Assembly (NCBI GenBank): GCA_016932675.1
Contig: JAFGCK010000084.1
Coordinates: 1 to 37,851 of the forward strand
Reading direction: 5' to 3'
Origin: Methanosarcinaceae archaeon
GTDB lineage: Archaea; Halobacteriota; Methanosarcinia; Methanosarcinales; Methanosarcinaceae
DNA length: 37,851 nucleotides
Positions 6,894 through 26,520 of this stretch are shown one piece after another. Below the pieces are notes generated by a model. That model did no database searches and was not told the origin of the DNA. It worked only from the letters and a program-made list of their open reading frames with translations. The position numbers were made by a program, and so were the translations under genes. Position 1 is the stretch's first letter; each line of letters begins with the position of its first letter.

Positions 6894-7910
6894 ATGACGT
6901 ATACTATTTCAGCTCCACCACATAAAAAAGAAAAGATCACTTTTAGTTCGATAAACCGGAGTAAGTTGCTTGCTCTGTTGCCTGTTAGTATTATCTCAGT
7001 GTATTTCTTTGGAGTACCTGCTCTTGGGATCATACTGGCAGCAGTACTCACTGCAGTTGTAACTGAGTATGGGATACAGTTGATATTCAAACAGGAAGTT
7101 ACATTAAAGGACGGCCATGCTGCAATGATAGGGCTTATGCTCGCATTGCTGACACCACCCACTGCTCCCATGTGGTTGCCTGTGGTAGGTGCCTTCTTTG
7201 CCATAGCCATTGGCAAGCATGCTTTTGGGGGGATCGGCTCCTATATATTCAATCCCGTGCTGGTTGCCTGGGTGTTCATCAGGAGCGCATGGTCGGTCCA
7301 CATGACGCCTGCATCCATTCCGCACACAGGGCAGTTTTCGGACCTTCTGCTTGAGAACGGTGCCGGTCTGCTTGCAGGTGTGTCCCTGATCGCACTCCTT
7401 CCGGGAGTATATCTGATCTATAAGAGGTACATTGAATGGAGAGTACCAATCACCTTTTTCCTGACCGTGTTCTTCTTCAATCAGGTGATAGCCTTTGTAA
7501 CTGAGATCATACACCTTGTGCAGGAAGGTGTGCTGAACCCTCTCATATACCTGTCCACAATGTTCATTTTCCTGGAACTCAACGAAGAGCTATCATATGC
7601 GATGATCGGCGTGGTCCTCTTTGGTATCCTGTTCCTTGCAACTGATTCGCCCACATCCCCTGTAACTAAGAAAGGGCGCATGATCTATGGGGTTTCCTGT
7701 GGCCTGCTTGTCTCTGTCTATGGTTATTTTGGCAATTATGTGGATGGTACCCTGTACGGTATCTTCCTTGCAAATGGTATTACATCTTTCATCGAGGCAA
7801 GGACCATGCCTGCGACATTCGGTCAGGAGTCTATCCTTGAACGTACCTATGATCGTATGATGAAAAGGATCCCTTCTGCTTTGAAATTCGAGGTGATATC
7901 GGATGACTGA
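6894..7910 (+). CDS. rnfD: Rnf complex membrane subunit RnfD
   Basis: A 338-residue integral membrane protein with about nine to ten helices, of the RnfD/NqrB family. LATDSPTSPVTKKGRMIYG is the conserved cytoplasmic-loop signature. The covalent-flavin acceptor of bacterial RnfD, D-x-x-[ST]-G-A-T, is not present anywhere; the aligned position reads DLLLENGAGLL. The subunit may therefore hold less flavin than its bacterial counterparts. The start ATG 6894 follows GGAGGTGA (6881-6888) one base after the rnfC stop. It overlaps rnfG by eight bases. Confidence 0.93.
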   Translation: MTYTISAPPHKKEKITFSSINRSKLLALLPVSIISVYFFGVPALGIILAAVLTAVVTEYGIQLIFKQEVTLKDGHAAMIGLMLALLTPPTAPMWLPVVGAFFAIAIGKHAFGGIGSYIFNPVLVAWVFIRSAWSVHMTPASIPHTGQFSDLLLENGAGLLAGVSLIALLPGVYLIYKRYIEWRVPITFFLTVFFFNQVIAFVTEIIHLVQEGVLNPLIYLSTMFIFLELNEELSYAMIGVVLFGILFLATDSPTSPVTKKGRMIYGVSCGLLVSVYGYFGNYVDGTLYGIFLANGITSFIEARTMPATFGQESILERTYDRMMKRIPSALKFEVISDD

Positions 7911-8469
7911 GTCAAACAAAGAGCCCCTTGTGATCATAGGTAAACTTGTGCTCATATCGGTGCTTGCTGCACTGCTTCTCGGGATAACGTATATCCCTAC
8001 CAGTGCGCAGCTGGAGCAGAATATAATCGCTGCCCAGAAAGAGATCCTGGGAGGTCTGATGCCCGCTGCCCAAAACTTCGAACCGGTCATGGGAGCAGAG
8101 AATGCAGAAGGTCAGAGGGAGATCCTCTACTATCGTGGAGTAGATGATTCAGGAAACATTATAGGTTATGCTTTCTTCAAGGAACATGGAGGTGCACAGG
8201 GCCCGCTAGTCGTGGCCGGTGCGGTTGATGCGTCGTTCTCTAATGTTCTGGGTATGGATGTTCTAAGCCATGAGGAGACCCCTGGCCTGGGATCGAAGAT
8301 CACCACTGCAGATTTCAGGGGACAGTTCAAGGATATCCCTCTATCCCAACTTGCCCTGTCAAGCTCCGGAGGCTCAATAGATGCACTTACCGGTGCTACG
8401 ATCTCATCACAGGCAGTTGTAGATGCCATGAATGAAAAGATAGGTGAAATAGAGGATGCAGAGGCTTAG
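7903..8469 (+). CDS. rnfG: Rnf complex subunit RnfG, covalent flavoprotein
   Basis: A 188-residue protein with one N-terminal membrane helix (about 11-31) and an extracytoplasmic FMN-binding domain. The acceptor motif DALTGAT occupies residues 160-166, putting the FMN-bearing threonine at 166, the residue number reported for M. acetivorans RnfG as I recall. HEETPGLGSKI upstream is the second family motif. ApbE, encoded divergently at the head of the operon, is the expected modifying enzyme. ATG 7903 overlaps the rnfD stop and follows GAGGTGATAT, indicating translational coupling. It ends in TAG, immediately before rnfE. Confidence 0.95.
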   Translation: MTESNKEPLVIIGKLVLISVLAALLLGITYIPTSAQLEQNIIAAQKEILGGLMPAAQNFEPVMGAENAEGQREILYYRGVDDSGNIIGYAFFKEHGGAQGPLVVAGAVDASFSNVLGMDVLSHEETPGLGSKITTADFRGQFKDIPLSQLALSSSGGSIDALTGATISSQAVVDAMNEKIGEIEDAEA

Positions 8470-8478
8470 GTGATACTA

Positions 8479-9093
8479 ATGGACCCATTAAGTGAATATA
8501 TTCGTGGAATTACAAGGGACAATCCGATCTTCGGACTGGTATTAGGTCTCTGTCCTACTCTGGCAGTGACAACATCAGTGGAAAATGCGATCGGTATGTC
8601 GGCAGGTACGGCTTTCGTGCTTGTGTTTGCAAATATCTTCGTTTCGGCACTGAGGAAACAGATACCTTCGGCTGTGAGGCTTCCGATTTTCATTATAATC
8701 ATAGCTACTTTCGTATCAATTGTGGATATGATCATGGAAGCCTACTTCCCGCCCATGTATGCGGCACTGGGTGTTTTCATCCCCCTTATCGTCGTTAACT
8801 GTATTATCATAGGGCGTGCCGAAGCATACGCTAACAAGAACAATGTGTTCTATTCCTTCATAGATGCTCTTGGTATCTCTACAGGTTTTCTCCTGGTGTT
8901 GATGCTGATCGGCGGGATCAGGGAACTTCTCGGAACCGGGCAGATAGTGACCTTTGGCTACACACTGGTATCACTTCCATTAAACCCTGACGTGACAACC
9001 ATGATCCTGCCGCCGGGCGCATTCCTGACGATAGGGACCCTTATGGCTATTGTGAATTACCAGAGGGCTAAAAAGAGGGCAAAAGGTGGTTAA
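8479..9093 (+). CDS. rnfE: Rnf complex membrane subunit RnfE
   Basis: A 204-residue six-helix subunit of the RnfE/NqrD family, which pairs with RnfA. GLCPTLAVT near residue 26 and IVVNCIIIGRAEA near residue 105 each supply one of the cysteines that, with those of RnfA, hold the intramembrane iron-sulfur centre described for Rnf/Nqr. I chose ATG 8479 because AGGTGAT (8468-8474) lies just upstream; a GTG at 8470 directly after the rnfG stop would leave no room for a ribosome binding site. The gene ends at TAA 9091-9093, one base before rnfA. Confidence 0.94.
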   Translation: MDPLSEYIRGITRDNPIFGLVLGLCPTLAVTTSVENAIGMSAGTAFVLVFANIFVSALRKQIPSAVRLPIFIIIIATFVSIVDMIMEAYFPPMYAALGVFIPLIVVNCIIIGRAEAYANKNNVFYSFIDALGISTGFLLVLMLIGGIRELLGTGQIVTFGYTLVSLPLNPDVTTMILPPGAFLTIGTLMAIVNYQRAKKRAKGG

Positions 9094-15655: not shown

Positions 15656-15770
15656 TCCGTATTGATGTTCCATCATTTACAGATATAGTCGCTATACTTA
15701 AATATAGATACAGATAATCCAGAAAAAACATTAAAATTTTGTCAGCTATGCCAAGGTACGAGGGTTGATC

Positions 15771-16358
15771 ATGCAGCGTGATGATATTATTGAAAAGGTA
15801 AGTTCCTGCATAAGAAATATGCAGGGAGTGGGTGATGTCCTTATTCTTACCAATGAGGACCGTGATATAATCAGGGAGCTTGAAAAGAAGGCAGATGAGA
15901 TGACCCTCATGGGTCTTGGGAAGGGCGACAACAAAGGTGTCAAGCAGGTCCTGAAAAATGATGTCATATTCGCCTTCACCACCAATATGGATTTCAAGTG
16001 GCCTTCGGGGCCGAATGTGATCCTCATGCATGAAGGCTGCGTGGTCGGCGAGGATGTAGATGATGAGTCCAGGCTCGAAGAACTCAAAAGCTGCAAGACC
16101 AACCTTGTAATGGGCAACATTGTGATCTATGATATAAGTGTCCTCAAACGCATGGATGCCAAAAATAATCCCCTTATTGTAGTTCTTCCGCCAAAGCCGT
16201 GTTCGGAGGTTGAAGAACTTTCGGATGTCTGCAACGTAACACTGGCTTCCCCATCCCCTCCCAGTGATGAATATATAAAGGAAAAGATGGGACTTCAGAA
16301 CATACACGGCACAGGTACCTTCCTGCTTGGATTTGACTTCGAGTGCAGCTGCAACTAG
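15771..16358 (+). CDS. Unknown cysteine-containing protein
   Basis: I do not recognise this 195-residue soluble protein. It has no signal peptide or membrane segment. Strand-like hydrophobic stretches (DVLILTN, DVIFAFTT, NVILMHEGCVVG, NLVMGNIVIYD, PLIVVLPPKPC) alternate with helices, suggesting a Rossmann-like alpha/beta fold. It contains eight cysteines, including a C-terminal ECSCN. ATG 15771 follows AGGGTTGATC, a fair ribosome binding site; a TTG six bases earlier is in frame but worse. It stands alone, downstream of the first RPA operon and followed by a hairpin. Confidence 0.85.
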   Translation: MQRDDIIEKVSSCIRNMQGVGDVLILTNEDRDIIRELEKKADEMTLMGLGKGDNKGVKQVLKNDVIFAFTTNMDFKWPSGPNVILMHEGCVVGEDVDDESRLEELKSCKTNLVMGNIVIYDISVLKRMDAKNNPLIVVLPPKPCSEVEELSDVCNVTLASPSPPSDEYIKEKMGLQNIHGTGTFLLGFDFECSCN

Positions 16359-22535: not shown

Positions 22536-23069
22536 TTATCTCCCACCAAGTTTCCTGGAAAAATCAATATAGCTACATGATTGTCCGGTGATCCCGATAA
22601 GTTCCGTGCTCATAGAACCGTTATCTATCACAAGTTCCACTGCACAGGGATCGGACATTCGGGGTTTGGTTGGTGATCCGGGACATATCAGAAGTACATC
22701 ATTCTTTTCTATAATTGGCCTGTGCAGGTGGCCAAAAACAAGTACGTTCACTCCCATTTCAAGCGCCTTGTACTTAATGGGTGTTGTATCGATAACAGAG
22801 AGGGCACCTTGGTGCACTATTCCAATCCTGACTCCCTCTACATCAAAGATAAGTTCTTCCGGAAGTAACTCTTTCAAAGCATCCTCATCGCTATTCCCGT
22901 GTACAGCTCTTAGCTTGCCTGTAGCCTCAAGGGCCTTATAAAAGCCCATGGAAATGAAATCTCCTGCATGCACTATTACGTCATAGTCCTCAATGACATC
23001 AGACAGGTATCGGGGAATTTCACTTCCTTCGATGTGTGTATCGGAAATAAGGATGCATTTTACGGTGAT
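22536..23069 (-). CDS. YfcE/MJ0936-family metallophosphoesterase, no canonical start codon
   Basis: A calcineurin-like phosphodiesterase of about 177 residues. Dimetal-site motifs are complete: SDTH, HAGD, GNSDE, VHQG and GHLH, followed by the family signature GSPTKPR. Similar proteins hydrolyse phosphodiesters or cyclic nucleotides. In frame, no ATG, GTG or TTG precedes SDTH: the first is a GTG at 22973, inside HAGD, which would remove the first metal ligands. The frame runs open up to the TAG stop (23091-23093) of the upstream regulator. I placed the start at ATC 23069 because GAGGGATC lies just upstream and the length then matches the family. Read-through of the UAG is the alternative. Confidence 0.8.
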   Translation of the reverse strand: MTVKCILISDTHIEGSEIPRYLSDVIEDYDVIVHAGDFISMGFYKALEATGKLRAVHGNSDEDALKELLPEELIFDVEGVRIGIVHQGALSVIDTTPIKYKALEMGVNVLVFGHLHRPIIEKNDVLLICPGSPTKPRMSDPCAVELVIDNGSMSTELIGITGQSCSYIDFSRKLGGR

Positions 23070-23090
23070 CTTGATCCCTCTGCTGATGTC

Positions 23091-23882
23091 CTATTGTATG
23101 CTCAGGTCTACAAGCTCATATTCCAGGTTCTCAGCCTCAAGCCGGCTCAGGATCGCAGGCACTTCCTCATCGATAGCCAGCACAAGAGAGGATAATCCAT
23201 GATATGCGGCCTCAATGACCGATTCCCTGGCACCGAACATCACATCTGGTTTCATGCCTATCTTTTTTAAAGCTACAAGGGATTCCACTCCTACCGTGGC
23301 AATGTAGCCCTTTGACTTCGCAAGGGATCGCAGGCGTTCAATGTCCACGTTCCTGGATCCTCCGCGTTCGACCCTGGGTACCCTGCAAATGGTAATGCTT
23401 GCATTTTCAAGATCGATGAGTCCCATGAGGTCTGTTACTCCCACATCCTCCCCTTTAATGGCATCGGAGATCGTCGTACCTGAAGCGTTGCTGACCTCTT
23501 CTGTTTCGACATACAGGAGTCCATCCCTCATCTTTAGATAGACCTTTACGCCCTTATCAAGATCTTCTTCGGCAATAGCAGTCCAGGTGGATACGTGGCT
23601 TATAATATCGCTCATTACGTACCGTGCATAACGTTTCATATCATTTGCATTCTCGAGTACCCATTCCACACCCTGTTTGGTAATGCGATAGCGAACCCTT
23701 CCCTCAGAGTAGACGTGGCCTTCGGCCACAAGTTCCTTGATGTACTCGGAAACTGCCTGGGGGGTAACACCTATCTTTTCAGCTATCTCTTTCTGCCTGA
23801 CATTTGGCTGGTGAGCAGCCACTTCTATGAGTATCTGAAACTTGGTTATGCCACTTTTACTATGAAGGAGTTCTATCATCAT
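23091..23882 (-). CDS. Winged-helix transcriptional regulator with C-terminal sensing domain
   Basis: A 263-residue archaeal regulator. Residues 1-75 form a MarR/ArsR-type winged helix with recognition region VRQKEIAEKIGVTPQAVSEYIKEL. The remaining 190 residues form an alpha/beta domain of unknown ligand, typical of a euryarchaeal regulator family (COG4800-like; I am not certain of the number). ATG 23882 overlaps the stop of the upstream regulator by one base (TAATG), so the two are coupled. It ends in TAG, after which the phosphoesterase frame continues without a shift. Confidence 0.82.
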   Translation of the reverse strand: MMIELLHSKSGITKFQILIEVAAHQPNVRQKEIAEKIGVTPQAVSEYIKELVAEGHVYSEGRVRYRITKQGVEWVLENANDMKRYARYVMSDIISHVSTWTAIAEEDLDKGVKVYLKMRDGLLYVETEEVSNASGTTISDAIKGEDVGVTDLMGLIDLENASITICRVPRVERGGSRNVDIERLRSLAKSKGYIATVGVESLVALKKIGMKPDVMFGARESVIEAAYHGLSSLVLAIDEEVPAILSRLEAENLEYELVDLSIQ

Positions 23883-24388
23883 TATTCCCCATCCATTAGC
23901 TTCAGCCTTTGCCCCATAACGGATAATCTATCAGAACGTCTTGCAACAGCACGTATATACAATGGACTCTTGTTCAATGCCCTTGTAAGGCTGCTCATTG
24001 AGTTATTTCCCTGCTCTACCAAATTCTCAAGTTCTTCTATGATGTCCTGCACTTCTTCATATGGCATGAAAGTCAACATAATGATATCACTCATATCCTC
24101 AAAGGAACATTGAAAATTTGTCTGAACTTTTGAATATGATGTGCGATATTCCTTCTCAGGCGTTTTTCCCGGTTCAGGCATATGCCACTGACTCTCGATA
24201 AGTCCGCTTTTCTTGAGTATATTGATACTGGACGTGACGTCAGTACCCAATACTTGTTCCAGGTCATCTTTTGTCATCCATAGATTTAGTAGTTCATCAA
24301 AAACCTTTTTATGTCTCTTTGATCCAAAAACTTGAAGCAGAGGTACGAGTTCGGAAGGGTCGTTAATGATTCTTGTTCGTTTACTCAT
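23882..24388 (-). CDS. ArsR-like helix-turn-helix regulator
   Basis: A 168-residue protein with an N-terminal winged helix (about 10-75: PLLQVFGSKRHKKVFDELL ... DLEQVLGTDVTSSINILKKSGLI). An EYRTSYSKVQTNFQCSFEDM segment and a helical C-terminus (about 110-168) follow. It resembles ArsR-type regulators common in methanogens and haloarchaea; target genes are unknown. GAGGTAATTA precedes ATG 24388. It heads an apparent three-gene unit: this regulator, the second regulator, then the phosphoesterase. Confidence 0.8.
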   Translation of the reverse strand: MSKRTRIINDPSELVPLLQVFGSKRHKKVFDELLNLWMTKDDLEQVLGTDVTSSINILKKSGLIESQWHMPEPGKTPEKEYRTSYSKVQTNFQCSFEDMSDIIMLTFMPYEEVQDIIEELENLVEQGNNSMSSLTRALNKSPLYIRAVARRSDRLSVMGQRLKLMDGE

Positions 24389-25902: not shown

Positions 25903-26520
25903 ATGCCTGAAAATCTTTATTCCAGCATCAATGAGATCCTGGTGGGTAAACAGCTTTCAATAAGTGCAATAACCCGTGAGCTGAAAGGGATCGGTGTCAA
26001 TGAGCACCGCCTTATTATGACCGGCTATCTGCGTGCTCTCCGGGATATGAAAAAACTTGAGGAGATTGATATCCCCCCATCCAAAGTGTACAGGATCATC
26101 GATGCAAAAGTGGATGATACACAGGCCGATCTCTATTCATTGATTGCCAGGGAAACAAGACATTTTGATTACAATACTGCCTTACCTCTTGCTGTCTATG
26201 TTGTTACTAAAATACTTGACAGGCCGGTCTTCAGAGAGGAACTTCTCAGAATGGGCTTTACACCCAAGAGCATAACTGACCACCTTTCCCGCCCTGATCG
26301 CATGATCATGGAATCGCGTAATGAAAACATCAGGGAGTACAGCTCCGGAATAACCAGGATATCCATTCCGGCTGCTGATCCTGCATATGAGGCAGAACCG
26401 GAATCCAATGAACTTCTCGGTGATGCCAGCTGTTTACTGATAAAGATGCTCAGGTTCTCCCTGGACATGAGTGGTCTTACCCCACGGACAAAAAGAACAA
26501 CCATTGCTGATTTCGGATAG
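25903..26520 (+). CDS. Unknown protein with winged-helix-like domains
   Basis: A 205-residue soluble protein I cannot name. Residues 1-65 look like a helix-turn-helix (LSISAITRELKGIGVNEHRLIMTGYLRAL), and DRPVFREELLRMGFTPKSITDHL (about 106-130) suggests a second one. The C-terminus is basic (TPRTKRTT). A DNA-binding or regulatory role is plausible. ATG 25903 has only a weak ribosome binding site. It is followed 30 bases later by the amidohydrolase gene on the same strand, so they may share a transcript. Confidence 0.78.
   Translation: MPENLYSSINEILVGKQLSISAITRELKGIGVNEHRLIMTGYLRALRDMKKLEEIDIPPSKVYRIIDAKVDDTQADLYSLIARETRHFDYNTALPLAVYVVTKILDRPVFREELLRMGFTPKSITDHLSRPDRMIMESRNENIREYSSGITRISIPAADPAYEAEPESNELLGDASCLLIKMLRFSLDMSGLTPRTKRTTIADFG

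Follow-up and report, generated by a model that had tools for sequence, protein, structure and literature searches.

The stretch of DNA analysed here (the window, 37,851 nucleotides from a Methanosarcinaceae archaeon) carries on its minus strand a gene for an ArsR-type winged-helix protein, a gene for a winged-helix/DUF7839 regulator, and a reading frame for a metallophosphoesterase (Table 1). The stop codon of the ArsR-type gene overlaps the start of the regulator gene, and the former shows 89-97% identity across eight related stretches. Both the open reading frames and the Pfam matches bear out what an earlier note had read from the letters, namely that the TAG at 23091-23093 closes the regulator and that the phosphoesterase follows in the same frame. 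From this TAG to the TAA at 22536-22538 (minus strand), the phosphoesterase frame comprises 184 sense codons. The leader that separates the TAG from the SDTH motif reads GAC ATC AGC AGA GGG ATC AAG ATC ACC GTA AAA TGC ATC CTT ATT, and SDTH is encoded directly 3′ of it by TCC GAT ACA CAC. These leader codons confirm the claim that neither ATG, GTG nor TTG occurs in frame between the TAG and SDTH. The note had also held that a start at the first in-frame GTG, at 22973, would destroy the active site, and this is correct, since that codon lies past SDTH and initiation there would give a truncated protein. Of the well-supported genes in the window, the phosphoesterase alone has no canonical start when compared with all the ATG-started relatives that served as queries.

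Table 1. Coordinates of the features at the regulator and phosphoesterase locus of the window.
Feature	Position	Strand	Basis
ArsR-type (PF09824) winged-helix gene, upstream	23882..24388	minus	Pfam E=2.4e-67; ORF
Winged-helix/DUF7839 regulator, 263 aa, C-terminus LVDLSIQ, stop TAG	23091..23882	minus	Pfam DUF7839 1.2e-30
TAG stop codon of the regulator	23091..23093	minus	TAA in G013 (same clade), TAA/TGA elsewhere
Shine-Dalgarno site GAGGGATC	23073..23080	minus	Predicted duplex with 16S 3′ end GGAUCACCUCCU
Proposed near-cognate start ATC (AUC) of the phosphoesterase	23067..23069	minus	ATC/ATC/ATA in the clade; opens conserved block; Shine-Dalgarno spacing
GTA codon in alignment with the orthologues' start ATG	23061..23063	minus	GTC or TTG in relatives
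YfcE/MJ0936-type metallophosphoesterase, 177 aa if started at ATC 23069 (MTVKCILISDTH...), stop TAA	22536..23069	minus	Family matches; purifying selection

The phosphoesterase matched Metallophos_2 (E=1e-25) and the PDB entries 2kkn, 2ahd and 1s3l, and its metal-binding motifs SDTH, HAGD, HGNSD and GHLH are intact. It resembles the MJ0936/YfcE phosphodiesterase family (TIGR00040; PDB 1s3l, 2ahd) in these motifs and in its TIGR00040 (yfcE) score of 108 bits, against a family cut-off of 56, but differs from it in adjoining a DUF7839 regulator and in the AUC or AUA codon at which it probably starts in its clade. The ratio dN/dS was about 0.07-0.09 where dS was estimable, and about 0.09 in the comparison with the related genome G013, indicating purifying selection, while synonymous sites are near saturation (pS 0.63-0.85) among the three lineages without an ATG start. 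These data indicate that the normal start was lost a long time ago and that the gene is neither a fresh pseudogene nor the product of a sequencing error; the latter is also ruled out by the loss of the ATG in three other genomes. A pseudogene without a start, or a gene expressed solely from an internal start as a product devoid of the active site, would agree with the absence of a canonical start and with the location of the first GTG past SDTH. We consider this highly improbable, in view of the complete set of motifs, of the low dN/dS relative to G013 and of a clade that has remained without the ATG until synonymous sites approached saturation.

The gene pair was compared in 30 genomes, corresponding to the window genome, 26 other Methanolobus genomes and three genomes of other Methanosarcinaceae genera. 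The C-terminal residue of the regulator occupies the same position in all 30, followed by TAA in 17 cases, TGA in 9 and TAG in 4. An ATG-Lys start of the phosphoesterase, six codons ahead of SDTH, is found in 26 of the 30 genomes. The gene is in the frame of the regulator in 13 of these 26 pairs and in another frame in the rest; the G026/G023 group shows an overlap between this ATG and the regulator's TGA. Given these separate starts in most pairs, the ancestral state is that of two separate genes. The frame shared with the upstream gene is unremarkable by itself, since half of the ATG-started pairs share it too. Nor does a TAG at this site imply a fusion, because in G017 the regulator ends with TAG and the phosphoesterase is out of frame and ATG-started. 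A fusion of the two proteins in G020, suggested by an open frame of 455 aa, turned out to be false, the protein there having 180 aa and its own ATG.

The ATG of the phosphoesterase is missing only in the window genome, G013, G014 and G008, which form a single clade (support 96/94); a scan of genome contigs for further members of the clade yielded only three more distant Methanolobus/Methanosarcinaceae loci. The codon aligned with the lost ATG is GTA in the window, TTG in G013 and GTC in G014 and G008, and the stop codon of the regulator is TAG in the window, G014 and G008 and TAA in G013. An Ile codon (ATC in the window, G008 and G014, ATA in G013) lies two codons upstream of the lost ATG in each of the four genomes and is followed by the Thr codon ACC or ACA. 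The differences at both positions affect the third base only, which suggests that these codons are translated. A sharp conservation boundary coincides with the ATC: over the three lineages, which are the only effectively independent sequences of the clade, pairwise residue identity is 4/21 in the seven codons before the ATC, with 3 of those 4 identities at the Gly codon within the Shine-Dalgarno (SD) site, and 30/36 from the ATC onwards. An out-of-frame ATG just past the lost start (23057-23059, minus strand) is present in all four genomes (AAATGC or AGATGT); the frame that it opens in the window is very short, and this ATG is probably a by-product of the Lys/Arg-Cys codons. Initiation in another frame from it, or a frameshift, was rejected, as a stop is soon reached there.

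The 3′ end of 16S rRNA, read in G008 and G013, is GGATCACCTCCT. In the window, GAGGGATC is predicted to form with it a duplex of -11.5 kcal/mol, at an aligned spacing of 8 to ATC 23069. This purine-rich site is conserved in the clade: the relatives carry GAAGGGAT at the same position, with predicted duplexes of -6.8 kcal/mol and spacing 9 ahead of the ATA of G013, and of -6.5 kcal/mol and spacing 10 ahead of the ATC of G008 and G014. A conserved AUH codon is thus found at a proper distance from the SD site in the four genomes without the ATG (aligned spacing 8-10). When 16 other starts of the window were scored, a stronger duplex was observed in only three of them, and clear sites lay mostly at a spacing of 8-11; for reference, the site of rnfG has -13.3 kcal/mol at spacing 10, and those of the genes starting at 24388 and 25560 are both at spacing 8. 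An SD site as strong as -11.5 kcal/mol at spacing 7-11 precedes about 0.6% of the ATH trinucleotides of the window, and about 7% match the weaker, moderate sites of the relatives. For the codons aligned with the ATG (GTA, GTC or TTG), the aligned spacing is 14-16, outside the range of the window genes with a clear SD site.

AUC (AUA in G013) is the most likely start, given the strength and spacing of the SD site and the abrupt onset of conservation at this codon. Our main reading, to which we assign a probability of about 0.76 from sequence comparison, is that the pair is an ordinary two-gene operon whose phosphoesterase starts at this near-cognate codon. According to this proposal, the UAG would end the regulator and the ribosome would initiate the phosphoesterase afresh at AUC 23069-23067, 21 nt past the stop, guided to it by the strong SD site pairing with the 16S 3′ end at standard spacing. 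The initiator Met-tRNA would read AUC as a near-cognate codon, giving a product of 177 aa that begins with MTVKCILISDTH. The common ancestor of the four Methanolobus species would have lost the ATG, and the start would have shifted two codons upstream, to a codon that is now AUC in three species and AUA in the fourth. Expression may be weak or require termination of the regulator, because we infer near-cognate initiation with insertion of Met. The earlier note had left two options for the phosphoesterase, a rare start at ATC 23069 behind GAGGGATC or a fusion through pyrrolysine; the former is supported by the strength and spacing of the SD site and by its conservation in three relatives, and the latter did not stand up to the comparison of orthologues, which showed two of the outcomes that the note itself had named as refuting, ATG-initiated phosphoesterases at this place and TAA or TGA in the place of TAG. 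Several points weigh against the AUC start: the SD sites of the relatives are only moderate and the in-frame TTG of G013, at the position aligned with the ATG, could serve as start in that species; and both lineages without any canonical start carry TAG, as is also expected under read-through.

A start at the GTA, GTC or TTG that has taken the place of the ancestral ATG, working as a degenerated GUG- or UUG-like codon, would put initiation exactly where 26 orthologues have it, and in G013 the TTG is a canonical start. Initiation at GTA or GTC would not be absurd either, since Streptomyces sigR has a proven GTC start, replaced by GTT in two species (PMC5472188). We regard it as unlikely, because its spacing of 14-16 to the SD site departs from the 8-11 of most genes with a clear site, and because the Ile-Thr codons upstream of it are conserved with third-position changes only. 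Somewhat less credit is given to the possibility that UAG is read as pyrrolysine and that the functional enzyme makes up the C-terminal half of a 448-aa fusion with the regulator. The organism is indeed able to decode UAG, as the note had stated: PylS is present in all 27 Methanolobus genomes of the set, and the window genome contains a pylT with CTA anticodon (L059, G000:C105:8658-8686) and an amber mtmB about 4 kb from it (G000:C105:12933-14282). The pylS gene lies on another contig (C114); ARAGORN detected no tRNA near it, and pylT was found elsewhere by pattern. In archaea with pyl genes, UAG serves both as sense codon and as stop, and a reporter with an introduced amber codon gave 20-30% read-through in M. 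acetivorans (PMC2933860). Moreover, the UAG stands in the phosphoesterase frame, at the same distance of 48 nt, in the three genomes without any canonical start, and the lineage that has TAA, G013, is the one with TTG. Read-through was kept under consideration because of this fit between TAG and the absence of a start, which involves three independent sequences only.

On the other side, the fusion as main product was rejected on the variation of orthologue stops and starts. The stop is TAA or TGA instead of TAG in 26 of the 30 genomes, including G013 of the same clade, and it is not replaced by a sense codon in any of them; the 26 orthologues outside the clade combine TAA, TGA or TAG with an ATG-initiated phosphoesterase at the same place, in many cases out of the regulator's frame or with the ATG overlapping the stop, and G017 retains TAG ahead of an out-of-frame gene. 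The linker from TAG to ATC has diverged, with the genes on either side conserved. In addition, UAG ends ordinary genes of the window, as the note had remarked: the gene at 15765-16358 (plus strand) ends with TAG where all 7 related stretches have TAA at the same position, and that at 25903-26520 (plus strand) does so where TAA is found in 5 of 6. Both genes are conserved, with no Pfam or NCBIfam match, and they speak for TAG as a functional stop codon in this genome. A PYLIS-like structure, which would be supportive of read-through but not essential to it, was also discarded, as the predicted GACATCAG/CTGATGTC helix past the TAG (z=-2.16) occurs in the window genome alone and is not conserved in G008, G013 and G014, which fold differently. 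What the window case shares with the known read-through proteins MtmB, MtbB and MttB is a UAG in frame, within a genome that has pyl genes; in contrast to theirs, the UAG of the window is not conserved within the clade, lies between separate genes and precedes unconserved sequence. One internal TAG is, by comparison, present in each of the six full-strength MtmB copies found in the four genomes of the clade. With the Pyl system present and the reporter read-through cited above, a minor fusion by-product is plausible in the species with TAG, although nothing points to it as the functional product. There is also a slight chance that in these species (the window genome, G008 and G014) UAG is partly and functionally decoded as pyrrolysine, with AUC supplying the separate enzyme; the fusion would then be made whenever Pyl is charged, and the phosphoesterase would be coupled to growth on methylamines. 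In the segment 22993-23090 (minus strand), the predicted partner of GACATCAGCAG, which directly follows the TAG, is CTGTCTGATGTC, some 80 nt farther downstream (z=-2.16); this pairing is not conserved in G008, G013 or G014.

Non-canonical start codons have precedents among bacteria: infC begins with ATT in E. coli and with ATC in Streptomyces, and the GTC start of Streptomyces sigR lies behind a strong conserved ribosome-binding site (PMC5472188). The likeness to infC and sigR resides in a rare start kept across species behind a good SD site, with the codon drifting among related codons. The window case differs in being archaeal, in concerning a phosphoesterase gene without known initiation-factor feedback, and in that initiation is deduced from sequence. 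Two statements in the literature also weigh against the AUC start: non-canonical translation in archaea had been demonstrated only for elongation and termination, according to a 2021 review (PMC8211752), and Sulfolobus aIF1 discriminates against non-canonical starts (PMC6237735). The phosphoesterase is presented as a new candidate, drawn from comparative genomics, for a type of start known in bacteria, and not as a new decoding system. A clade-conserved AUC/AUA start would offer a natural setting for testing how initiation in archaea, through aIF1 and SD strength, tolerates near-cognate codons. In annotation, gene callers limited to ATG, GTG and TTG would truncate the phosphoesterase to GTG 22973 or miss the gene, and it could be mistaken for a pyrrolysine fusion.

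A second pair of genes separated by an in-frame TAG, rnfG-TAG-rnfE, occurs in the window at 7903-9093 (plus strand; TAG at 8467-8469), and the in-frame TAG is kept in several relatives. This pair is clearly not a fusion: rnfE starts at a conserved ATG of its own (8479), the TAG forms part of the rnfE SD site AGGTGAT (TTAGGTGAT), and G008 shows an extra in-frame TAA between the two genes.
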